64,000 nucleotides of DNA, taken from contig JACDNX010000006.1 of the NCBI GenBank assembly GCA_017656385.1, positions 1 to 64,000 on the forward strand. The letters are read 5' to 3'. The notes under the pieces were generated by a model. The model was not told where the DNA came from and searched no databases. It worked only from the letters and a program-made list of their open reading frames with translations. Positions 8,403 through 21,106 of the stretch are shown piece after piece (the first letter of the stretch is position 1; each line of letters starts with the position of its first letter). The translations under genes and the position numbers were made by a program. The DNA comes from Thermodesulfobacterium sp. Its GTDB lineage: Bacteria > Desulfobacterota > Thermodesulfobacteria > Thermodesulfobacteriales > Thermodesulfobacteriaceae.

Positions 8403-8442
8403 AAAATCCTCCGGCTAATTCAAGTCTATCCCACCTGAGAAA

Positions 8443-8613
8443 TTAAACCTCTTTCATTTTTAAAGAAATAAAAAGCATACATCTATCTCTATATGGACAG
8501 TAGCCCTGAGGATTTTTACATCCTCTTTTTAGTTCTATATATTCTTTAAACTTCTCACACCAAACTTTCTCATTTCTGTTTTTTTCTTCATTTTTATTAT
8601 CTCTCGATTCCAT
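8443..8613 (-). CDS. 56-residue Cys-rich protein at the end of the acetyl-CoA operon
   Basis: ATG at 8613, stop at 8443. The polar N-terminus leads into a segment with four cysteines at residues 19, 32, 39 and 45, embedded in KRGCKNPQGYCPYRDRC. The spacing (C-x12-C-x6-C-x5-C) suits one zinc or iron-sulfur site. It starts 13 bases after the stop of the acsC-acsE fusion and keeps the strand, so it is probably translated from the operon, although the ribosome site is weak. I do not recognise the family. It could be a metal-site accessory or a small electron carrier; these are guesses. Confidence 0.7.
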   Translation of the reverse strand: MESRDNKNEEKNRNEKVWCEKFKEYIELKRGCKNPQGYCPYRDRCMLFISLKMKEV

Positions 8614-8626
8614 CTTTTTACTTACT

Positions 8627-10957
8627 TTAAACTTCTAACCATGATTCAGAAAATATAGTTTCTCCTGTTAAAACCTTAACGGTCTTGTATATTTCAGTTT
8701 CCTTAGGTGAAAGCTTTTGAGTATCTATTTCTTCTCCTTCCATTATCCTATGCACAAGTGAAACCCATTGAGGATGTTTACCCTTAGCAATTTCTATCAG
8801 TTCTTTATCGTATATGTCAAGTATTGCACTATAAAGATTGTATTTCATAAGCATCATAAGCATAACTCTGTTTAAATAAGGCCTTAAATGAGGAGCTACT
8901 CCATTGGAAACATTTGAAAGGCCAACAATTGTTTTAACTCCTGGTGTAACTTCTTGAAGCATGGAAAGAAAGTTAAGAATCTCTCTAATCTGTTGAGCTC
9001 CAAGAGTTATAGGGGTAAGAACAGGATCAACCCATATTTTTTCATTTGGTATATCGTATTCATTAAGTTTTCCTACCAGATCCACTGCAAGGGAGGCTCT
9101 TTCATTGGCATCTCTTGGAAGCCCTGATTCTCCCCATAAAAGTGCAACCACATCACAACCGGTTTCAGCAGCAAAAGGTGCAAGTCTGTTTAGTCTTTCA
9201 GGATGAATAGTAATGGAATTTATAAGTGCTTTTGAGGGCTGTTTTGAAACCTTAAGCCCTGCTATCATTGCATCTGGATTTGTAGTATCAAGTGAAATAG
9301 GAATATCTACCACCTCTTCAACAATTCTTACAATCCAAGGTGCCAGTTCTTGAGCATCCTTTTTTGCTGGTCCTATATTTAAATCCAAATACTCTGCTCC
9401 AAGTTCAGCACTTTCCTTAGCCATCTTTTGAATAGGCTGTGCTTGGCGTTCTTTTATGGCCTTCCCTATTCTTTTTGACATTATATTGATATTTTCAGCT
9501 ATACAGACCACTTTGTGGTTGCCTTCTTCTTTTTTTTCTTTTTCTTTCTTAACTGCTTGTTTTTCCTCCTCTACCACTTCTATCCTTTCAGTTTTTTTTT
9601 CTTTTTTTAATTCTTCAGTAAAATTTTTAAAAAAAGCTGGTATCCCACTTGCTTCTCTTGGCCCTACAATAATTTCCCACCCAGGCAATTCCTCCTCAAG
9701 TTCTCCTTTTATACCAGCTAAGTATCCGGGAATAATGAGCTTTCTGTGTTTAATTTTTTCTTCAATTCCACATTTTTTAATAAACGGAGCTATGGTATCA
9801 GCTCCAAACTTACCAGCTGCCCAAGCTGTAAGAACTGATAAACCATCTGTATCTTTTATAAGAAGCCAGGTTGGAACCCTGCTTGCTTCAATTTCACCAT
9901 TTACAATAAAATAAGTAAGAGCAAAGTTACAAGTTATAGCAACTAAAGAGTTCTCGTCAGGACCGTTTATAGGATAAATACCCTCTTCCACAACAAGTGG
10001 TTTTTGAGGATCTGTATAGATATTCATTCTTTCTACTAAGAGATTAAACAAAGCTTCTGGCTTTAGATCCGAAAGAATAATGATGCTACTGTATTTACAA
10101 ATGAGTGCACTTGCAATGAGTGCCTCAAAAAGATAAGAACTTGTATAGCGGTATGGGAAAGTTATAACCGGAAAACCAAAAGGTTTAAATCTATTCTTAA
10201 CAGCTGTTTTTCTTATAATTATCAAATCTTCAAAAAGCTCTCTTACTCCTTGAGAACCAGGATCAAGAACAAGCTTTCTTAAACCCTTTTTTAAAGCCTT
10301 TTCAGATAATTTAGAAATTTCATCTAAGCTCTCACCTATTATGGTAAGAGGTGCTTGAGTCTCAATAGAAAGCTTAGAAAGTTCCTCAAAATTTTGAGAA
10401 CCGGCACCGTAGATCAAGGGTTTAAAATCTCCGCATACTTCTATAGCCTCTCTTAGTATTTTAGTCTCTGAAGATGCTAGAACTAAAGCCACCCAGGGGA
10501 GTTCACTTCTTACTTTTCTGGTAATTTCTACCAGTTTACCCCCGTTTTCTTCATCTTGTAGAAATAAAATCTCAGGTTTAAGGGTAATTCCTACCCTTTC
10601 CCATTTCAGTTTTTTATAAAGCTCTATTCTCCTTAAAATTTCTTCTTCTTGCATTTTTGTTGAGATAAAAGTTCCTATAAGTGGAGGATTTTCAAAGCGT
10701 TTATCGTGTCTGAAAAGGACACTTTCTCCACCCAGAAAATAGGTATATTCACCTCCGCCGAGTTCTACTTTTTTTACAGGTGGAGCTGAAGCTTCAGCAA
10801 TTTCTTCTTTAACTGCAGGGTCAACATAAGGACAGGCATTTATATCTGCCTGACCCGCAGCCACCTTCATAGCAAATGCCATACAGGTAGAAAATCCACA
10901 TTCCTTGCAATTTGTCTTAGGTAATTTTTTTAAAATCTGAATCCCTGTAAGACCCAT
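8627..10957 (-). CDS. acsC-acsE: Fused corrinoid Fe-S protein large subunit (AcsC) and methyl-THF:corrinoid methyltransferase (AcsE)
   Basis: Residues 1-446 are AcsC: a [4Fe-4S] site with Cys17, Cys20, Cys25 and Cys42, a TIM barrel, and the cobamide-binding end closing with VGPREASGIPAFF, where free AcsC normally stops. A 33-residue Lys/Glu linker (447-479) follows. Residues 480-776 are the pterin-binding methyltransferase AcsE, with IAENINIM, DLNIGP, LDTTN, WVDPVLTP and GLSNVSNG as family landmarks. Together these move the methyl group from methyl-tetrahydrofolate to cobalt and on to ACS. In the acetogens I know, acsC and acsE are separate genes. An insertion of about 25 residues lies near the AcsE C-terminus. 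Lies 21 bases after acsB. Confidence 0.95.
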   Translation of the reverse strand: MGLTGIQILKKLPKTNCKECGFSTCMAFAMKVAAGQADINACPYVDPAVKEEIAEASAPPVKKVELGGGEYTYFLGGESVLFRHDKRFENPPLIGTFISTKMQEEEILRRIELYKKLKWERVGITLKPEILFLQDEENGGKLVEITRKVRSELPWVALVLASSETKILREAIEVCGDFKPLIYGAGSQNFEELSKLSIETQAPLTIIGESLDEISKLSEKALKKGLRKLVLDPGSQGVRELFEDLIIIRKTAVKNRFKPFGFPVITFPYRYTSSYLFEALIASALICKYSSIIILSDLKPEALFNLLVERMNIYTDPQKPLVVEEGIYPINGPDENSLVAITCNFALTYFIVNGEIEASRVPTWLLIKDTDGLSVLTAWAAGKFGADTIAPFIKKCGIEEKIKHRKLIIPGYLAGIKGELEEELPGWEIIVGPREASGIPAFFKNFTEELKKEKKTERIEVVEEEKQAVKKEKEKKEEGNHKVVCIAENINIMSKRIGKAIKERQAQPIQKMAKESAELGAEYLDLNIGPAKKDAQELAPWIVRIVEEVVDIPISLDTTNPDAMIAGLKVSKQPSKALINSITIHPERLNRLAPFAAETGCDVVALLWGESGLPRDANERASLAVDLVGKLNEYDIPNEKIWVDPVLTPITLGAQQIREILNFLSMLQEVTPGVKTIVGLSNVSNGVAPHLRPYLNRVMLMMLMKYNLYSAILDIYDKELIEIAKGKHPQWVSLVHRIMEGEEIDTQKLSPKETEIYKTVKVLTGETIFSESWLEV

Positions 10958-10978: not shown

Positions 10979-13201
10979 TTACATAATAGGTGGTAATTTA
11001 AGCACTGGATGGTTTACTTTTTTTATCCAGTTAATAAGTTCTTCCTCTGTATTAACCGTGGTCTCATCTGCAATTTTTTCCAGAAAATCTGGAACACCCA
11101 ATTCTTCTGCTCTTTTCTGGAGTCTTTCTCTTAACTCTTCTTTTAACATCTTGGGCATCCAAACAATTCTTAAAAATCCATCTTCTGCAGAAATAAACTT
11201 TTTGGAAGTAATGTATTGTTTGGAAATACCTAAAAATCCCGGAGTTACATTTCCTCCACCTATCATTCCTGCAAGAGTAGAAAATTTAAATCCAATTGGT
11301 GTTTCTTTAGTAAACTCTCTATTTACTATGATTATTCCATTAGATCTTGCAGAGACAGCTGCAATGGCTTCCATACAACCACATACAGTCATCGGATTAT
11401 TGACTATACTATACAAACTAACTCTATCTACTGTACCTTTGGAAGCTTTTTTAATAAACTCATTTACCCCTTCAAATTGACCCAATTTCAAATCAATAGG
11501 CTTTCCTTTTAAAATTGGCTGATTTGGTCCAGCAGGATTGATCTGATAATAAGCCTTTCCATCAAGCCAGCTATAAGCTCCGCAAGGGCCTCCTCTTTCA
11601 GGAGTAATTACACAAACATGGGTAGGTGCAAAACTCTGACATAAAGTGCAGGAATAAAATACATCTACATTCTCATCAACCATATCTGCAAGCCTTGCAT
11701 CTCTTTTTTCATATACACCTTTAGCCATTTCCAATATTTCTTTCACCCTCTCCTCATCTGTATAGATTGTAACCTGACACTTGTCTACTATTGCACTAAA
11801 ATCCTGTTTAATTCTGGCATACAAAATCTTCCCAATGTGTTTAAAAAGAAAACCCTTTTCAACAGCCTGTTTGCTAACTCTAATCCATACTATGTTCCTC
11901 TGCCCTATATGCATAATCCCTTGAGCATAGTTGATGAAATAATGAAACTGTCTTTCAATAATGGGTTCAAAATCTTCTTGCATATTTGCACCAGCTACTT
12001 TCACCACTATAGCAAGAGGCACTCTATAAGGTGGGCCCTTTTCATCAATTTTGGGAAGGTCAGAAATTTCAGGGCCTACAACCTCTATTTCACCATCTTT
12101 TATATCTTCAAAAGATGTAGATATTAAAAGTTCTACTGCAGGGCTTTTCCCTCCACCACATTCTAAAAACAGATCTTCTTTTCTAACTCTTTCTCCTTCA
12201 AAAGCAGGTGCATAAGCTACAGGAACATCTATTTTTGTTGTAGCAACTTTAACTCCTCTTACAAAAAGTGCTTTTTCAACAATTTCCTCATGAGGCACTT
12301 TTGATACCAGATGTTCATAAGTGCAAACTCCGTAAGGTTTAATTTCTGGCAATTCCCAGTCAGAAATGGTTGGAAATCCCCAATTCATTGCTCCAGCTGC
12401 ATTTGCAGCCCACTCTTCCGAAGGAGGTCCAAAAGCAATTACAAAAGCATAGGTTCTATCTTTGTTAAAAAGCAGATTATTTATATAATCTCCTGGTTTT
12501 ATCCCTCCAAAGGACATGGCAACTCTGCAAGCAAAACCGATAGCAAAAACTACACTTGTGTAATCTGGACCAAAGGGTATCAGTCTTACAGGCCAACCGA
12601 GTTGAATTCCTGCTTCTTTAAGTAGGTAGGGCATATAAATGCCATTTGTTTGATCATGCATAAAAACATAAAGTGATCTTTCAAGGAGTTCTTGAGTTAT
12701 CTTTTTTGCTGTTTCTTTATCAGAAGGAGAGCCAAGTAAAACTGCAAAACCAGGAGCTGTCCCATCAACAAACTCAACCCCTCTTTTTCTAAAGATAACA
12801 TCGTCTGCTGCTCCAAGCCAAATGTTTTCTTCTGTAGGCTCTTCAGTTTTTGTATATAAATCAGGTTTTTCCAAATAGTTTATAGCCTCAATTATTTCTT
12901 CTGCAAAAAAAGTGGCCATTCCTGCATCAAGTGCTGGACCTAAGTACGGAAGACTATGCTTCTCAGAAGGAACTTTAGGTAAAAGCTTTTTAGCTTCCTG
13001 TAAAATCTCTTCACAATCACCAAGCCTCTTTACTGGATAACCCAGTATGGCATAAATAACAGGTAAATAATAAGCTGTATTGGGAAATCCTATCTCAGTA
13101 GATTTCCCAAATTTTTTTACAGCGGATTCATATTTTTCCCATGCTCTTTCTATAATTTTATGTGCACCTTTTATAGCTACACTAAAAATTATCTTAGACA
13201 T
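10979..13201 (-). CDS. acsB: Acetyl-CoA synthase catalytic subunit
   Basis: Joins CO, a methyl group and CoA into acetyl-CoA at the A-cluster. 740 residues, the full bacterial length, including the N-terminal CODH-binding domain that archaeal versions lack. The A-cluster [4Fe-4S] ligands are all present: Cys518, Cys521, Cys530 and Cys540 in YSCTLCQSF...VCVITPERGGPCG. The nickel-binding Cys-Gly-Cys motif is at 607-609 (TVCGCMEA). The C-terminal motif TPIGFKFSTLAGMIGGG is also intact. It lies between acsD and acsC-acsE with short gaps (19 and 21 bases). Nothing suggests loss of activity, in contrast to the CODH-like protein upstream. Confidence 0.98.
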   Translation of the reverse strand: MSKIIFSVAIKGAHKIIERAWEKYESAVKKFGKSTEIGFPNTAYYLPVIYAILGYPVKRLGDCEEILQEAKKLLPKVPSEKHSLPYLGPALDAGMATFFAEEIIEAINYLEKPDLYTKTEEPTEENIWLGAADDVIFRKRGVEFVDGTAPGFAVLLGSPSDKETAKKITQELLERSLYVFMHDQTNGIYMPYLLKEAGIQLGWPVRLIPFGPDYTSVVFAIGFACRVAMSFGGIKPGDYINNLLFNKDRTYAFVIAFGPPSEEWAANAAGAMNWGFPTISDWELPEIKPYGVCTYEHLVSKVPHEEIVEKALFVRGVKVATTKIDVPVAYAPAFEGERVRKEDLFLECGGGKSPAVELLISTSFEDIKDGEIEVVGPEISDLPKIDEKGPPYRVPLAIVVKVAGANMQEDFEPIIERQFHYFINYAQGIMHIGQRNIVWIRVSKQAVEKGFLFKHIGKILYARIKQDFSAIVDKCQVTIYTDEERVKEILEMAKGVYEKRDARLADMVDENVDVFYSCTLCQSFAPTHVCVITPERGGPCGAYSWLDGKAYYQINPAGPNQPILKGKPIDLKLGQFEGVNEFIKKASKGTVDRVSLYSIVNNPMTVCGCMEAIAAVSARSNGIIIVNREFTKETPIGFKFSTLAGMIGGGNVTPGFLGISKQYITSKKFISAEDGFLRIVWMPKMLKEELRERLQKRAEELGVPDFLEKIADETTVNTEEELINWIKKVNHPVLKLPPIM

Positions 13202-13220: not shown

Positions 13221-14465
13221 TTAATTTGCCATCAAGAGATCAAAAAACGATTGACAAAGTTCTATAGCTTTAGGGTGTCTCATTATCAACAAATCTCCTC
13301 CAGCAAGAGAAAGCACTATTGCTGTAATTGCTTCCATCAGCACACCTCTTGTTTCCTGCTCTCCAAAAATATCATCTGTAGGTAGTTGTGCCTCTTTGGT
13401 TGCCCAGACCTCTCTTCCAACAGCACATACAAAAGGAGATTGTAAAGTCGTATCATTGTAATACAAAGCTGCAATCCTTATTCTCTCCATCACCGAATAG
13501 GCATACTCAATTCCATACCCCAATGCACCTATAGAAGGATCCATTATTATCTTATCTAAGGGTAATCCCATGTTTTCAAGAAGTATGTTAAGCTGTTTTG
13601 CCAAATTAACATCTATAGGACTTGATGCAATTACAGGTAAATTATATCCCATTGCAACAGCTGCCAGAGTTCTGTAATTACTCTCCAAGAGAGGTCCTAT
13701 TGCTATTCCTTTTCCTCCTATTAACTCTGCAACTTCTTTTATTATTTTTACATCCTTTTCAGAATTGCCAGAGCCCCATATAATAATAGGCACATCAACT
13801 GAATCTGTCACTTTTTTTACCACTTGTTTAGCATGCTCGGCATCAAGATTTAAGTAATTGGGATCTGTTCCTTGTAAATAAAGACATATAGCCTCTGCAC
13901 CATAAACTTCAACACACTTTTTTGCCCAAAGAGCTGGATCATGAAAAACATCAGAAAAATATTTAGCCAAACTTTCAGGCCAGTCTTCTGGTTTAACATC
14001 CAAAATTTCCATAGCAATTTTTACTCCGTTCCCCATATGCCCTTCAAAAAGATAAAAAGGTAAACAGGTCTCTCCTCCAACTTTTAAACTTCTTTCTCCC
14101 CCTCCTATTACAACCTCTCTTATCTTTTCAGTGGTAACATCCTTATAAAGACTTTCAGAAATATTTTTAGCTCTCTCTGATAAAGGTCTGTAAATATTGG
14201 TAGGCTCAGCTTTTGCTATTTGTTCTATTTTTGTTTTTTTCTCTTCTTTTTTTACTGATATAACTTTCTCTTCAACCTTTAATTCTTCTTTTTCTTCTTT
14301 CAATTCTTTTTCTTCCACAAAAATTGTTTTATTAAACAACTCTGTTTCAAGCCTTTCTATTCCCTCTTCCAGCTGTTCAATCCCTGCATGAAGACTCTTT
14401 AAACCCAGTCTCAGGTCTGATAAAATATCAATCAGGCTTTTTAAAAGCTCTTTTTCATTTTGCAT
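13221..14465 (-). CDS. acsD: Corrinoid Fe-S protein small subunit with N-terminal heptad extension
   Basis: The core (about residues 90-414) is the TIM-barrel small subunit that pairs with AcsC and holds the cobamide; SLKVGGETCLPF, EGHMGNG and VWATKEAQLP are typical landmarks. The N-terminus carries about 90 extra residues: a helix with leucines at 18, 25, 32, 39 and glycines at 21, 28, 35, then a Glu/Lys linker. The same pattern, one residue earlier, starts the CODH-like protein of this operon. The family usually begins near the barrel at about 310-320 residues, so the extension is an addition. It most likely serves as a docking helix. Confidence 0.96.
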   Translation of the reverse strand: MQNEKELLKSLIDILSDLRLGLKSLHAGIEQLEEGIERLETELFNKTIFVEEKELKEEKEELKVEEKVISVKKEEKKTKIEQIAKAEPTNIYRPLSERAKNISESLYKDVTTEKIREVVIGGGERSLKVGGETCLPFYLFEGHMGNGVKIAMEILDVKPEDWPESLAKYFSDVFHDPALWAKKCVEVYGAEAICLYLQGTDPNYLNLDAEHAKQVVKKVTDSVDVPIIIWGSGNSEKDVKIIKEVAELIGGKGIAIGPLLESNYRTLAAVAMGYNLPVIASSPIDVNLAKQLNILLENMGLPLDKIIMDPSIGALGYGIEYAYSVMERIRIAALYYNDTTLQSPFVCAVGREVWATKEAQLPTDDIFGEQETRGVLMEAITAIVLSLAGGDLLIMRHPKAIELCQSFFDLLMAN

Positions 14466-14493: not shown

Positions 14494-15417
14494 TCAACAA
14501 ATTTTTGGTCTAGGGTAAAGCTTTGCCCTCTTTACAATTTCAGGAACAATAAATTCCCATCCAATTGCCATGATATGGACCCCGCTAACACCAGGATTTT
14601 CTTTAACTCTTTCTATAATTTCCACCGCAATATTAATCCCTTCTTCTTTTTCATCTTTTGCAGATTCCATTCTCCTTATCAGCTCGTCTGGAACCTCTAT
14701 TCCAGGAACTTTGTTCTCTTTCATATATTTAAGCATTTTTAAAGATTTGGGCGGAGCAATACCAGCAAGTATGTAAACTTTTTCTAATATACCTAAATCT
14801 TCACACAATCTTATAAACTTTTCAAATCTCTCTAAGTTGTAAACTATCTGAGTTTGAATAAATCTTGCTCCTGCCTTTATTTTTTTTGCCAATCTTATCG
14901 GTCTAAACTCTAATGGATCGGCAAAGGGGTTTTCCACTGCTCCTATAAAAAAATAAGGATGTTTCCCTTTAACTTCTTTTTTATTAAAAAATCTACCTTC
15001 AGAAAGATTTTTTGCTAAGCTAATTAGCTGAATTGAATCTAAATCAAAAACAGGCTTTGCTTGCGGATGATCTCCCAAGCTTACATAATCTCCTGTTAGG
15101 CACAAAATATTTTTAACTCCCAGAGCTGAAGCTCCCAGCAAATCAGATTGAATGGCTATTCTATTTCTGTCTCTGCAGGTAATATGCATTACAGGTTCAA
15201 TATTTTCTTTTTGTAAAATAACTGCTCCTGCAAGGCTTGACATTTTAACCGTAGCCCTTGGTGAATCTGTAATGTTAACTGCATCCACATAGCCTTTTAA
15301 CCACCTTGCCTTTTCTTTTATCAACTTAGGATCTGCATTCTTAGGAGGCTCTATTTCTGCAGTAACTGCAAATTGACCTGATTCCAACACTTTTTGAAGA
15401 TTAGTTTTTATTTCCAA
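14494..15417 (-). CDS. metF: Methylenetetrahydrofolate reductase, MetF subunit
   Basis: Reduces methylene-THF to methyl-THF, the last step of the methyl branch. 307 residues forming one FAD-binding TIM barrel. Landmarks are AEIEPPKN near residue 20, VNITDSPRA near 48, HITCRDRNR near 79, LTGDYVSLGDHP near 105 and FIQTQIVYN near 188. It overlaps metV by 17 bases, a tight pairing typical of the two-subunit MetVF enzyme of acetogens. No HdrABC or RnfC2 genes accompany it here, so its electron donor is not shown. Confidence 0.95.
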   Translation of the reverse strand: MEIKTNLQKVLESGQFAVTAEIEPPKNADPKLIKEKARWLKGYVDAVNITDSPRATVKMSSLAGAVILQKENIEPVMHITCRDRNRIAIQSDLLGASALGVKNILCLTGDYVSLGDHPQAKPVFDLDSIQLISLAKNLSEGRFFNKKEVKGKHPYFFIGAVENPFADPLEFRPIRLAKKIKAGARFIQTQIVYNLERFEKFIRLCEDLGILEKVYILAGIAPPKSLKMLKYMKENKVPGIEVPDELIRRMESAKDEKEEGINIAVEIIERVKENPGVSGVHIMAIGWEFIVPEIVKRAKLYPRPKIC

Positions 15418-16078
15418 CTCTCAACCCCTCTCTCAATTCTCTTATTCCTTCACCATAAAGACTTCTCCAATCTTTTGCTTCCCATATTTCCATTAATTTT
15501 TCGAGTTTTCCTCTTTTTTTAAGCCTTTTTATAATTTGATACCACACACAGGGTAACCCTTTTCTTACTTCACATACTCCATTTTTAGATCCACCACATG
15601 GCCCATTAAGCATATTTTTAGGACATCTTGTTATTGGACAAAGCCCAGCAGTATAACCTACTATACAATCTCCGCAAGCCCTACATTTTTCAATACAAAT
15701 ACCTTCTCTTAACTCTGCACCCAAAAATAAAGTATTCATTCCTGGATATACTTCTATTTCAGAATAAATATCCGCTATTAAATTAACCCCCACTCCGCAA
15801 CTCAATGTTACTACTGCCTTAACCTCTTTTATTAAATCATTTATACCTTTCACATATCGAAGTTCACACAGTCTAATTAATGTTTTTTCTAAAATTTCTA
15901 TGGATTTCCCCAAGTCTCTCATTTTGTTTTTTATCTCTTCGGCAAGCCTTTTTACTGCATCTCCACCAGATGTTGCACAGCCATAAGGACATTCCTGACA
16001 TCCCAGCACAAGAATTTTATCATGTTCCTCTATATAGCTCAAAATTTCTTCTAATGGCTTTCTTTTGATTACTATCAT
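15401..16078 (-). CDS. metV: MetV, zinc/iron-sulfur partner of methylene-THF reductase
   Basis: 225 residues with many cysteines: CQECPYGC at about 27-34, LSCGVG near 94, and a dense C-terminal cluster (CIEKCRACGDC, CPITRCPKNMLNGPCGG, GVCEV, PCVW). The last cluster is the hallmark of the MetV/MTHFR C-terminal domain, which in characterised acetogens links MetF to an electron donor. The gene lies between the CODH-like gene and metF and overlaps metF. The assignment rests on the Cys signature and the metF pairing. Confidence 0.92.
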   Translation of the reverse strand: MIVIKRKPLEEILSYIEEHDKILVLGCQECPYGCATSGGDAVKRLAEEIKNKMRDLGKSIEILEKTLIRLCELRYVKGINDLIKEVKAVVTLSCGVGVNLIADIYSEIEVYPGMNTLFLGAELREGICIEKCRACGDCIVGYTAGLCPITRCPKNMLNGPCGGSKNGVCEVRKGLPCVWYQIIKRLKKRGKLEKLMEIWEAKDWRSLYGEGIRELREGLRVGNKN

Positions 16079-16091
16079 CCGGCTTTTCTCC

Positions 16092-18392
16092 TTAATTAAT
16101 TGACCGATTTTCTAAAATTTCAAAAAATCCAGATTTATGAATAGAAGAAATATATCTTTTTTCATCAAGAGTTCTTCTCATAGCCATATCATAAAAAATC
16201 CTTGGCCTTAACTGATCAATGCCGAGTTTTTTTCTTTTTTGCTTAATTCTATCTATTATAATCCCTGAAAACTCACTTGCTGTTTTTGCAAATCTAATAG
16301 ATCCTCCGAAATACTTTTCTACTTCTTCAAAAAGAAATTTGTTTGTTTTTTTGTTTTCCACGATTAAATTTCCAGGATCAAAAACAACCTGTAATCCGCT
16401 TGAAACAAAACACATTATCGTAGATAAAGCTTTTTCATTCACCCACTGAGGCAAACATATTATAACAGGAAGCTCACATATATCTTTACCCAACCCGCCA
16501 GTATTAACCATTTCTGTTAAAACTGTAAGAACTCTTGAGTTAGACACACAGGATCCCGTATTCAACACAGGCGGACATCCTATTGCTTCAAGGACTTCTC
16601 TTAATCCTTCACCAGCAAGTTGAGACGCCTCTGGAACTAAGAGTCCTGCCATACCAAGTTTAATCGCAGAACAACCTGTAGAGAAAACAAGCACATTATT
16701 ACTTATTAGCTCCTTTGCCAGCTCTACTTGAACATTTTCATTCACTCCAAATTGATCACAACCTGAAATTAGTGCTATACCCAAAATTTTTCCGTTAATT
16801 ATATTTTCATTTAAAATACTTAATCCTGCCCTAAATCTTCCTCCCATAACATACATAAGAGCCTCTGCACTAAATCCTGAAATTGCCTCAATTGCTTCAT
16901 CAGGAATATAAATCCTTGTTGAATCTCTTTTAGAATATCTTGAAACAGCAATCTTTAAAATTTCCTTTGCACTTTTTAAAGGATATTTTCTGTTAAATTC
17001 AACACAAATAGCACCCTCCATCAGGGATATCGGATTTGTGGTGATAACTGCCGTGTGAAACCTATTTGCTACTTGCACCACATTTGGTATAAGTCTTCCT
17101 ATTATTGCTTCCACCGCTCCTGTAGCAATAACTGCTTCTTGATAAGCAAATGAACCAGCAACAGGGAAACCCTTTCTCATTAAAATTTCATTTCCTGCAC
17201 AACCCAATCCAACGAGATTAACACCCTTTGCACCTGCCTTTTTAGCCAGTTTGAGAATTTCTAAATCCTTGGAAGCCTGTATCAAAGCCTCAGCAACCAA
17301 AGGATCCTCTTCACAGACTACAACATTTACCATATCTTCACGAATAACCTCTTTACCTATGTTAACCTGCGCTCTAACTGGTTGAGGAGTACCTAAAAGG
17401 ATATCTTGCAATTCTGTGGCTATCATTGAAGCACCCCAACCATCAGCAAGGGCACACCTTAGAGATGCAAACAAAATATTTTTATAATATTGATCAACCC
17501 CTAAGGAAGTTCTGTAAATAAGCTCTGCAATCTCTCTGTCAATACCTCTTGGCATAACCTCATATTTTCTCCACTTTTCAATTAAAGTCTTAGGAGCTCT
17601 GTGAGCCAAAATTAACTCTCCTTTTTGTTGAAAAAAGATTTTACTAATTTTGTCTACAACCTCATTTAATATCTCCTCTTCTGATTTTTCCAGATTAATT
17701 CCTAACGCATAAGCAAACATTTTTAGCTTTCTTTTGTCTCTGAATTTAAACGGAATTTCTCCTTTAACGATATCGTTTAAAGTCTCTACTATAGATTTTG
17801 CGTAATCTGCTTGTGCTGAAACTCCTGCTGCAACTAATCTTGCAAAATTTCTCGCAGAAACTAAACTTGCATCTGCTCCACAAATCCCTTTTAATTCTTC
17901 TACCCCCTCAACAACTTTGCAAGGGCCCATATTACAAACTCTGCAAATCACTTCTCCTTTATCTACCTCGCCAATTTTGGTCTTTTCTGCTCTTTTTAAA
18001 ACTGTATATAAATCGGAAAATTCTCTGTGTAATCTGTCATAAAGTTTTCCCAGAGTTTTATTGTAAAAACCGATTTTTATCTCTTCTGCAGATTCTATCT
18101 CAGCTGGTTTAGAAACTTCTGATTTTTCTTCCATTTCCGGTTCAATCTCTATCTTTTCTATCTTTATCTCCACACTTTCCTCTTTTTCCTCAACAAATTT
18201 CAAAGCTTCAAATTCCTTAGAGATCATCTTATGAAGTTTTTCAAGTGCTTCTTTGTTGATGTTAAGAATATCTTTTTCTAACTTGCTCAGCCCTTTTTCT
18301 AATACTACCATACCTGATTTAAGAGCCTTTATACCTGTTTTTAAACTTAAAAATATTTCTCTTAATTCTTTTGTTGAATTTTTATTTGACAT
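16092..18392 (-). CDS. CODH-family (AcsA/CooS-like) protein with altered C-cluster ligands and N-terminal heptad extension
   Basis: 766 residues, about 130 longer than typical CooS. Residues 1-44 are a leucine heptad helix with Gly20, 27, 34, followed by a Glu-rich linker to about 110. The CODH fold starts near 110. B-cluster cysteines are kept (150, 153, 158, 171). Of the C-cluster ligands in C. hydrogenoformans CooS-II numbering, Cys295, Cys446, Cys476 and Cys526 are kept (398, 545, 574, 615) and Lys563 is Lys654. His261 is Glu362 (local VCEEDP instead of HGHNP). Cys333 is lost with a three-residue deletion near 432. His93/96/99/102 are Gln194, Tyr197, Ser200 and Glu203. D-cluster cysteines 39 and 47 are missing. 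It occupies the acsA position, but normal CO dehydrogenase activity is doubtful. Confidence 0.9.
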   Translation of the reverse strand: MSNKNSTKELREIFLSLKTGIKALKSGMVVLEKGLSKLEKDILNINKEALEKLHKMISKEFEALKFVEEKEESVEIKIEKIEIEPEMEEKSEVSKPAEIESAEEIKIGFYNKTLGKLYDRLHREFSDLYTVLKRAEKTKIGEVDKGEVICRVCNMGPCKVVEGVEELKGICGADASLVSARNFARLVAAGVSAQADYAKSIVETLNDIVKGEIPFKFRDKRKLKMFAYALGINLEKSEEEILNEVVDKISKIFFQQKGELILAHRAPKTLIEKWRKYEVMPRGIDREIAELIYRTSLGVDQYYKNILFASLRCALADGWGASMIATELQDILLGTPQPVRAQVNIGKEVIREDMVNVVVCEEDPLVAEALIQASKDLEILKLAKKAGAKGVNLVGLGCAGNEILMRKGFPVAGSFAYQEAVIATGAVEAIIGRLIPNVVQVANRFHTAVITTNPISLMEGAICVEFNRKYPLKSAKEILKIAVSRYSKRDSTRIYIPDEAIEAISGFSAEALMYVMGGRFRAGLSILNENIINGKILGIALISGCDQFGVNENVQVELAKELISNNVLVFSTGCSAIKLGMAGLLVPEASQLAGEGLREVLEAIGCPPVLNTGSCVSNSRVLTVLTEMVNTGGLGKDICELPVIICLPQWVNEKALSTIMCFVSSGLQVVFDPGNLIVENKKTNKFLFEEVEKYFGGSIRFAKTASEFSGIIIDRIKQKRKKLGIDQLRPRIFYDMAMRRTLDEKRYISSIHKSGFFEILENRSIN

Positions 18393-18424: not shown

Positions 18425-19327
18425 TTATTCTACTTCATTTGGAAGACCGTTCCACATTTTTGCTGCTTCAAGGGTATTTTTCATAAGCATGGTAATGGTC
18501 ATAGGTCCAACTCCACCCGGGACAGGAGTAATAGCTTTTGCCTTTTCCTTAACATTTTCAAAATCTACATCTCCACAAAGAATAGCTTTTCCTTCTGGTG
18601 TAGTTCCAATCCTATTTACACCTACATCAATTACCACTGCTCCATCCTTTACCATATCAGCAGTAACAAATTTGGGTTTCCCCACAGCTACAATTAAAAT
18701 ATCTGCTCTTTTTGTATGAGAGGCTAAATCTTTTGTTCTTGTGTGGCAAACTGTTACAGTTGCATTGCCCACAGTCTTTCTTTTCTGCATAAGAAGATTT
18801 GCTATGGGTTTCCCCACAATATTGCTTCTCCCCACAACAACAACCTCTGCTCCTTCAACCTGGCATCCAATTTTTTCCAAGATTACCAAGATACCATAAG
18901 GTGTGCATGGTAAAAAACAGGGTTCTCCTATAACCATTTTTCCTACATTAACTGGATGAAAGCCATCTACATCTTTTCTGGGATCTATGGCACTTATTAC
19001 TCTTCTTTCATTTATGGATTTCGGTAAAGGGAGCTGAACCAGTATCCCATGAATTCTCAAATCTTTATTGTATTTATCAATAAGCTTTATCAACTCATCT
19101 TCTGAAGCACTTTCAGAAAGTCTTTCTTCCACAGAATAAAATCCGAGTGCTTGAGCTACCTTTTGTTTCCCTTTAACATAAGAAATTGAAGCTGGATCAT
19201 CTCCTACTAAAATAGTAACAAGTCCAGGAACAATATCATATTTTTCTCTCAATTCTTCAACCTCTTTCTTAATCTTTTCTCTTATCTCCTGAGCTATGGA
19301 TTTTCCATCTATAATTCTTGCTACCAT
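18425..19327 (-). CDS. folD: Bifunctional methylene-THF dehydrogenase / methenyl-THF cyclohydrolase
   Basis: Converts formyl-THF to methylene-THF in two steps of the methyl branch. The 300 residues contain the substrate site YVKGKQKVAQALG with Tyr and Lys near 50-54, the family motif QLPLPKSI near 98, and the NADP site VVGRSNIVGKPIANLL near 165. PVPGGVGPMT is at about 270. Length and motifs are standard. No separate fchA is present, which fits a bifunctional FolD. It lies 15 bases after fhs and 32 bases before the CODH-like gene. Confidence 0.97.
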   Translation of the reverse strand: MVARIIDGKSIAQEIREKIKKEVEELREKYDIVPGLVTILVGDDPASISYVKGKQKVAQALGFYSVEERLSESASEDELIKLIDKYNKDLRIHGILVQLPLPKSINERRVISAIDPRKDVDGFHPVNVGKMVIGEPCFLPCTPYGILVILEKIGCQVEGAEVVVVGRSNIVGKPIANLLMQKRKTVGNATVTVCHTRTKDLASHTKRADILIVAVGKPKFVTADMVKDGAVVIDVGVNRIGTTPEGKAILCGDVDFENVKEKAKAITPVPGGVGPMTITMLMKNTLEAAKMWNGLPNEVE

Positions 19328-19342
19328 TTTACTTCCTCCTTA

Positions 19343-21106
19343 TTAGAAAAGACCTTTTACTTTTCCTGTATCTAAATCCACATCAATTCTCCTGTAAGCT
19401 GGGTCTGAACCTGTTCCAGGCATAAGTTTTATTTCTCCAGCCACAGGCACTATAAAACCCGATCCCCTGTATATAAGAACATCTCTTATTCTCAGTTGCC
19501 ACTCCTTAGGAACCCCTTTTTTCCCAGGGTCATCGGAAAGAGAAAGATGAGTTTTTGCCATACAAATAGGCATCTTTTTTAATTCCTCATCCCTTTCAAT
19601 CAACTTGATTTTTTCTTCTGCTGCAGAGCTGTAGATTACTCCCTCTGCTCCATAGATCTCTTTTGCTATTTTTTCAATCCTTTTTTTTACAGGCTCATCA
19701 AGTTCATAGAGAAATTTAAACTGAGAAATTTCTTTAGATGCATCTATAACAGCATCTGCAAGCTCTAAAGCACCTTCTCCTCCTTTTAACCAGTGTTCAG
19801 AAAAAGCCACCCTCACCCCTAAATCTTCACAAAATTTTTTTACAAAATCAAGTTCCTTTTTAGTATCGGTATAAAATTTGTTAATGCACACCACGGGATT
19901 TATTCCGCTTTTTCTAACAATATTTATACAGTGAAGAAGATTTTCACATCCTTTTTTAATCCATTTTAAATTTTCTTCAAAATATTCTTTTGGTATAGAA
20001 CTTCCTGATTTGGGAACAGGAGCTCCACCATGGCATTTAAGCGCTCTTATAGTAGCAACTATTACTACTGCATCAGGAACAAGACCAGAAATTCTGCATT
20101 TTACATTCCAGAACTTTTCAAAACCTATATCTGCAGCAAATCCGGATTCAGTGACTACATAATCTCCAAGTTTTAAAGCAATGTAGTCGGCAATAACGGA
20201 TGATTGGCCCAAAGCAATGTTGCCAAAGGGACCTGTATGAACCAGAACAGGTTGCCCCTCTATTGTTTGCACAAGATTGGGATTAAGTGCATCAACAAGT
20301 AGAGCTGTCATAGCTCCTGCTACCTCTAAATCTTCTGTAGTTATAGGATTGCCGTATCTGTCAAGAGCAACAACTATTTTCCCAATTCTTTTTCTTAAAT
20401 CTTTTAAGTTTTTTGCAATTGCTAATATTGCCATTACTTCAGAAGCACCAGAAATATAAAATTTGCTTTCCATAGGATATCCATCCATTTTACCACCGAG
20501 CCCTATAACAATGTGTCTCAATGCTTGGGCACAAAAATCTATAACCCATCCCATTTCAACCCTTTTAGAATCTATGTTCAACCTTTTTAAGCCTTTTTTA
20601 GCCAAAATCTCATCACTATAATTTGCTTCGTGTTGCATTCTTGCTGTAAGGGCAACCATAGCAAGATTGTGGGCATTCATTACTGCATTAATATCTCCTG
20701 TGAGCCCTAAGGAAAATTTATCCAGCGGAATAACTTGAGAAAGACCTCCTCCAGCAGCCCCCCCTTTAATATTAAAAATTGGTCCACTTGAAGGCTGTCT
20801 CATAGTTCCTATTACCTTTTTCCCTCTTTTCCCAAGCCCTTGAACCAAACCTATTAAGGTTGTGGTCTTCCCCTCTCCTAAGGGTGTTGGAGTAATGGCG
20901 GTAATATCTATGTATTTTCCATTAAGTCTATTCTTTAATCTTTCAAAAACTTTTTGGTAATCAATTTTAGCTATATAATGTCCATAGGGCAGGAGTTCTT
21001 CTTCTGTTAACTCCAGTTCTTCCCCTAACTGATATACAGTCTTCATGTTTTTCTCGGCTTCATAAGCTATTTCCCAATCTTTCATTTTTAAAGGATCGAA
21101 TCTCAT
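19343..21106 (-). CDS. fhs: Formate-tetrahydrofolate ligase
   Basis: Activates formate with ATP and THF, the entry step of the methyl branch. 587 residues. The P-loop TPTPLGEGKTTT is at about 71-82, and MRQPSSGPIFNIKGGAAGGG follows near 100. The Trp/aromatic folate site and the C-terminal LMPGTGSDPAYRRIDVD are present. A GGAGG-like ribosome site precedes the ATG. As the first gene of the long operon it is 119 bases from galE on the same strand, so the operon promoter lies in that gap or upstream of galE. No formate dehydrogenase is in the window. Confidence 0.98.
   Translation of the reverse strand: MRFDPLKMKDWEIAYEAEKNMKTVYQLGEELELTEEELLPYGHYIAKIDYQKVFERLKNRLNGKYIDITAITPTPLGEGKTTTLIGLVQGLGKRGKKVIGTMRQPSSGPIFNIKGGAAGGGLSQVIPLDKFSLGLTGDINAVMNAHNLAMVALTARMQHEANYSDEILAKKGLKRLNIDSKRVEMGWVIDFCAQALRHIVIGLGGKMDGYPMESKFYISGASEVMAILAIAKNLKDLRKRIGKIVVALDRYGNPITTEDLEVAGAMTALLVDALNPNLVQTIEGQPVLVHTGPFGNIALGQSSVIADYIALKLGDYVVTESGFAADIGFEKFWNVKCRISGLVPDAVVIVATIRALKCHGGAPVPKSGSSIPKEYFEENLKWIKKGCENLLHCINIVRKSGINPVVCINKFYTDTKKELDFVKKFCEDLGVRVAFSEHWLKGGEGALELADAVIDASKEISQFKFLYELDEPVKKRIEKIAKEIYGAEGVIYSSAAEEKIKLIERDEELKKMPICMAKTHLSLSDDPGKKGVPKEWQLRIRDVLIYRGSGFIVPVAGEIKLMPGTGSDPAYRRIDVDLDTGKVKGLF

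Follow-up and report, generated by a model that had tools for sequence, protein, structure and literature searches.

An in-frame AcsC–AcsE fusion beside a degenerate CODH in Thermodesulfobacterium

The CFeSP large subunit AcsC and the methyl-THF:CFeSP methyltransferase (MeTr) AcsE are encoded by one gene in a 64,000-nucleotide stretch of DNA from Thermodesulfobacterium sp. (contig JACDNX010000006.1, hereafter the window). The fusion was confirmed to be real, conserved and lineage-restricted, with a flexible charged linker between its two parts. Judged from its sequence, it is a new lineage-restricted variant of a known system, with a putative effect of the fusion itself. Thermodesulfobacterium are heat-loving sulfate-reducing bacteria. 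The greatest surprise in its neighbourhood is a degenerate CODH (AcsA) encoded in the same operon. In the literature searched, no description was found of an acsC–acsE fusion, of the joining and splitting of MetF and AcsD reported below, or of the degenerate AcsA. AcsC and AcsE are presented as distinct subunits in a 2026 study on the Desulfobacterota pathway, whose text gave no match to fusion words (PMC12827605).

The fused gene and its linker

The fused gene is located at positions 8627–10957 of the window on the (−) strand, where 776 codons form a single open frame with no stop, and it is present in a single copy. The AcsC part (residues 1–446; 9620–10957, (−) strand) was assigned by profile, with NF003195, PF03599 and PF04060 as membership profiles, and by alignment to structure chains. 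The score against NF003195 (NCBIfam AcsC/gamma) was 556 bits versus a cut-off of 306, residues 1–448 corresponding to profile positions 1–448 of 450. This half aligns end to end with the solved chains 2h9a_A, 9fzy_F and 4djd_C, and the alignment stops at the normal end of AcsC; the initial annotation had likewise placed that end at residue 446. The cysteines of the 4Fe-4S cluster (C17, C20, C25 and C42) are kept. The linker was initially described as 33 charged residues; it is indeed charged and K/E-rich, but comprises 34 residues (447–480; 9518–9619, (−) strand).

The AcsE part (residues 481–776; 8630–9517, (−) strand) was identified by profiles, alignment and AlphaFold2. Residues 484–725 match models of the methyltetrahydrofolate:CFeSP methyltransferase and the solved MeTr chains 2yci, 1f6y and 2e7f, and the pterin-binding profile PF00809 scores 62 bits on this half versus a cut-off of 25.5. 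In the alignment to 1f6y, residues D75, N96, D160, N199 and R207 of the Moorella thermoacetica MeTr correspond to D557, N580, D644, N682 and R692 of the fusion, and all are kept. With the barrel and the five catalytic residues in place, the earlier description of a complete pterin-binding methyltransferase after the linker proved accurate. Both curated NCBIfam AcsE models gave scores under their cut-offs (NF005719, 210.5 versus 259; NF040758, 171 versus 370), and this half is therefore called divergent; by sequence criteria it is a Desulfobacterota-type AcsE with retained catalytic residues. The MetH profile TIGR02082 scored 84 bits on the fusion versus a cut-off of 1010.85, which places the protein outside MetH, a family defined also by homocysteine and activation domains.

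A Foldseek search returned AcsC structures for the first half and MeTr structures for the second, with TMt of 0.84–0.86 for 1f6y and 2yci. The AlphaFold2 model of the whole fusion has a mean pLDDT of 86 and a pTM of 0.45, values that fit two flexibly tethered domains. In the model, a long C-terminal AcsC helix (residues 436–456) is followed by a stretch with pLDDT below 50 (residues 455–479), predicted to be disordered, and then by a confident AcsE barrel; the model is of high confidence on either side of that stretch. At its C-terminus, AcsE carries an extension of about 50 residues (about 726–776; 8630–8780, (−) strand) with two predicted helices, which is missing from the M. thermoacetica MeTr and is also present in relatives with split genes. 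Directly 3' of acsE, inspection by eye indicated what seems to be a short Cys-rich reading frame (about 8440–8615, (−) strand).

Among the fusions, linker length ranges between 34 and about 72 residues; Glu and Lys make up 51–68%, and little sequence is shared. On the coding strand, the linker of the window is 86% purine, and linker DNA contains 55–62% A and 9–19% T, whereas the spacers of relatives with separate genes have 19–33% T. Most of these spacers are shorter than the linker and richer in T, so it is not simply an old spacer read through. Runs of A in the linker reach 9 bases in the genome of the window (G000), 12 in G016, and 7 in G010 and G011. Estimates of omega were low (0.14–0.19) for the acsC and acsE parts; the linker sequence is not conserved, which weakens any case for selection on tethering itself.

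Occurrence and history of the fusion

The genome of the window (1,671,364 bases, scored 100% complete) contains only one AcsC/AcsE locus, so the unfused acsC and acsE elsewhere in the genome that could have spoken against the fusion do not exist. The sole other protein matching Pterin_bind is a 284-aa frame, a dihydropteroate synthase by size and score, which disposes of a second, unfused copy. A search of other genomes found the fusion in frame in five Thermodesulfobacterium genomes, including that of the window: G000 (776 aa), G016 (795 aa), G010 (801 aa), G013 (817 aa) and G011, where it is ended by the contig edge at 579 aa. The G016 sequence is that of Thermodesulfobacterium sp. AUK151 (locus L002). 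G010 is a closed one-contig genome of 1,634,377 bases, taken as T. geofontis OPF15, which was finished with 454 and Illumina reads at more than 3,000-fold coverage (PMC3624685).

A sequencing or assembly error hiding a stop and a start codon would be conceivable in view of the long A runs of the linker, and exactly such a frameshift explains a look-alike in a Dehalococcoidia MAG (L003:5890-8226). There, the frame is shifted near the end of AcsC, and the normal ending, GPREGAHIPAYLKTWKP followed by a stop, lies in another frame; the candidate was rejected as a fusion. In Thermodesulfobacterium, however, the fusion is in frame in four genomes besides that of the window, with linkers that differ, and the five genomes come from different assemblies, among them the finished one. 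The probability of an artefact is thus negligible.

In seven further Thermodesulfobacterium genomes, and in every other genus of the family for which there are data, acsC and acsE are two adjacent genes, mostly with 40–90 bases between the cores. In the split relatives that were inspected, acsE begins at a start codon of its own, with a good ribosome site. No further acsC–acsE fusion was found in 395 genomes of the phylum; the long open frames returned by this search (L125–L140) were all split on inspection. No viral copies were found. In the tree of AcsC, AcsE, AcsB, AcsD and MetF, the genomes G000, G016, G010 and G011 group together with full support, and G013 stands apart. The history of the fusion requires two changes on the best tree, but the AU test does not reject a single origin (p-AU 0.131).

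The operon, the MetF–AcsD tether and the degenerate AcsA

Next to the fused gene on the (−) strand lies acsB (10979–13201), encoding acetyl-CoA synthase with intact A-cluster cysteines and CGC motif; the A-cluster is kept in every genome in which the region is covered. It adjoins acsD (13221–14465, (−) strand), the gene of the CFeSP small subunit and putative corrinoid-binding partner of AcsC, which begins with an N-terminal helix and a K/E linker. Further along the same strand are metF, methylene-THF reductase (14494–15417), a metV-like gene of the DUF5981 type encoding an MTHFR C-terminal partner (15401–16078), and acsA (16092–18392), followed by folD (18425–19327) and fhs, formate-THF ligase (19343–21106), the last two assigned by sequence and conserved operon order.

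Elsewhere in the family, wherever there are data, a single ORF of about 720–895 codons encodes both MetF and AcsD (loci L010, L011, L012, L016 and L089–L113), arranged as MetF, a linker (in most cases long and EKP-rich), a helix, a second linker and AcsD. The two genes are separate in the window's clade: they are split in G000, G010 and G011, where AcsD begins with the helix. G013 has both fusions, MetF–AcsD and AcsC–AcsE. The splitting of MetF and AcsD where AcsC and AcsE are joined suggests that the covalent tether moved from the former pair to the latter. Elsewhere, AcsB and AcsD were seen as one ORF of 1174–1267 codons with a low-complexity linker containing a helix (L046:2195-5995, L049:2395-5916 and L054:2369-5929), in MAGs labelled Latescibacterota, SAR324 and Oligoflexia.

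The N-terminal helices of AcsD (14331–14465, (−) strand) and AcsA (18258–18392, (−) strand) are alike, with a local score of 80 compared with 64 for the best of 2000 shuffles. The AcsA helix is present in the window's clade and missing from AcsA of its relatives. Going by this similarity, the two helices could be a shared docking module. The initial annotation had taken docking helices as pointing to a tethered methyl-transfer assembly; this is a reasonable reading, since the helices are alike and MetF is tied to AcsD in relatives by a helix and linker of this kind, but the docking itself is inferred.

AcsA was aligned to solved CODH and to intact relatives, in which the C-cluster His and five Cys, the D-cluster Cys and the relay His are expected. 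In the window, VCEEDP replaces VHGHxP, DVQC is deleted, AQADY replaces AHSDH, and TPC..CC is lost; the score against TIGR01702 (Ni-CODH AcsA/CooS) was 469.1 bits, below the cut-off of 478. Both G000 and G016 lack the C-cluster His, one C-cluster Cys, both relay His and the D-cluster Cys, and other combinations of ligands are lost in G010 and G011. The B-cluster cysteines are kept. Omega for AcsA was 0.23–0.26 versus 0.08–0.19 for its neighbours; AcsA is therefore under purifying selection and not a plain pseudogene, and some activity is possible. No other CODH was found in G000, G010, G011 and G016. The only other Prismane-family match, a full-length protein of 541 aa, was taken as a hybrid-cluster protein and dismissed as a second CODH supplying CO. 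The working CODH/ACS assumed at the outset is not supported, as AcsA has lost ligands of both the C-cluster and the D-cluster and the genome holds no second CODH.

Genomes resembling T. commune (L108–L111; G009, G015, G012 and G021) have an AcsA remnant of 474–493 aa at the operon; an intact CooS-type CODH was seen elsewhere in G012 and G021, and none in G009 and G015. In G013 (L122:4084-7897), two tandem CODH genes lie beside folD, the first intact and the second divergent with several ligands missing. The co-occurrence of the fusion and an intact CODH in G013 means that fusion and CODH decay are separable. Loss of the pathway within the genus has a precedent, since the related Ca. T. torris was reported to be without CODH/ACS altogether (PMC9539880).

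Possible role of the tethered pair

The MeTr takes a methyl group from methyl-THF and passes it to Co(I) of the CFeSP, in which the corrinoid lies between AcsC and AcsD, a separate subunit; textbooks use this transfer to exemplify large domain motions between separate proteins. From its sequence, the AcsC–AcsE protein is likely to be a tethered donor–acceptor pair. The earlier picture of one chain with both the donor site and the acceptor site needs modification, because the corrinoid site is shared with AcsD, a separate chain, and the fixed 1:1 ratio is no novelty, the M. thermoacetica CFeSP/MeTr structures (PDB 4djd, 4dje and 4djf) already having equal numbers of AcsC and MeTr chains. The same partners, domains, catalytic residues and ratio are found in that complex, where they are distributed over two chains instead of one chain with a 34-residue linker and an AcsE C-terminal extension. 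MetH also tethers a folate-binding barrel and a corrinoid domain in one chain, but its domains are ordered differently and include one for homocysteine, whereas the acceptor of the fusion would be CFeSP/ACS. The MetF–linker–AcsD protein of family relatives belongs to the same operon and likewise tethers successive enzymes of the methyl branch by a helix and K/E linkers, although the partners are different and it is split in the window's clade.

Most likely, the linker holds the folate-binding AcsE barrel near the mobile corrinoid domain of AcsC, which would raise the local concentration at unchanged stoichiometry and spare the partners a diffusional search. In an assembly of the type (AcsC–AcsE)2(AcsD)2, methyl transfer between methyl-THF and Co(I) would proceed just as it does in the 1:1 complex already known. 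The AcsC–AcsE tether would replace the older MetF–AcsD tether, adding to it in G013, and the assembly would be built around AcsB, with AcsA kept mainly as a non-catalytic, helix-docked component. Since AcsA appears inactive, the module probably runs without CO2-to-CO reduction, either cleaving acetyl-CoA to methyl-THF and CO or synthesising it from outside CO. A module of this kind is known from Dehalococcoides mccartyi, whose AcsB splits acetyl-CoA; the cell releases the CO and uses the methyl group (work of Zhuang 2014, as summarised in PMC7005905). This incomplete Wood–Ljungdahl pathway likewise keeps AcsB and the CFeSP without CODH, but D. mccartyi has no AcsE and MetF, while the window has both, together with an inactive-looking AcsA. 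The genome of the window encodes a full acetate-CoA ligase, and no Citrate_synt (citrate-synthase-type) match and no GcvP (glycine decarboxylase) over the cut-off were found in it, which is in line with an acetyl-CoA cleavage like that of D. mccartyi. The same two negative results dispose of autotrophy by the rTCA or glycine pathway as the reason for CODH loss. Donation of methyl groups from the CFeSP to methionine via a core-MetE is unlikely, given the full-length MetE frame (764 aa) in the genome. The presence of Fhs, FolD, MetF and MetE, by which methyl-THF could also be made from formate, speaks against a firm choice of pathway direction.

The fusion might also be near-neutral, the stop of acsC having been lost between adjacent, co-transcribed genes and a purine-rich disordered linker having grown in an AT-rich genome with no functional difference. 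The adjacency and short spacing of the two genes in most relatives, the free variation of the linker in length and sequence, and the 1:1 ratio of the known complex would all fit such an origin. Nevertheless, the fusion has persisted in G013 and in four species-level genomes that form one clade, the composition and length of the linker differ from those of most spacers, and relatives have another tether (MetF–AcsD) in the same operon; we therefore consider this explanation unlikely, although it deserves to be taken seriously. Production of free AcsE from an internal start, or of free AcsC by slippage on the A runs, in addition to the fusion is improbable. At the start of its AcsE core, G000 has a GTG with a weak ribosome site (AAGG, 10 bases upstream), and the A runs of G000 and G016 could favour slippage; however, GTA, GTT or TTA occupies the place of the GTG in G010, G011 and G016, the next ATG is 12 codons inside AcsE and has no ribosome site, and the A runs are just 7 in G010 and G011. 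Comparison of G000, G010, G011 and G016 thus revealed no conserved internal start in the linker or at the AcsE start.

Full Wood–Ljungdahl CO2 fixation with an unusual but active AcsA, in which the fusion would serve ordinary acetyl-CoA synthesis, accords with the purifying selection on AcsA and its intact B-cluster, with the reported requirement of T. geofontis for CO2 and its use of H2 or formate (PMC3624685), and with the description of a Thermodesulfobacterium MAG as a Wood–Ljungdahl autotroph from homologues (PMC8579995). It is opposed by the loss of C-cluster His and Cys in different combinations in G000/G016, G010 and G011, by the loss of the D-cluster cysteines, and by the T. commune-like relatives, which have only the AcsA remnant; we judge it to be unlikely. 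A functional AcsC–AcsE tether in an AcsB-centred assembly, with AcsA mainly non-catalytic and probably no CO2-to-CO reduction, is, taken as a whole, the best and a rather probable explanation. Only tentatively would we go further and propose that CODH/ACS has been rebuilt as a CODH-free methyl-transfer machine, with a dead AcsA as scaffold and the MetF–AcsD tether exchanged for AcsC–AcsE, in which AcsB and the fusion cleave or make acetyl-CoA without CO derived from CO2.

The fusion provides a natural single-chain version of the methyl-transfer pair in a culturable, sequenced thermophile, T. geofontis, in which it becomes testable whether the encounter of the partners limits the reaction, and it is a ready-made construct for studying the pathway. 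More important than the fusion alone are the swap of tethers, MetF–AcsD versus AcsC–AcsE, and the degenerate AcsA. The latter is a warning that CODH/ACS homologues by themselves can mislead when autotrophy is called, and it makes one ask what part acetyl-CoA synthase plays in a bacterium apparently incapable of making CO.
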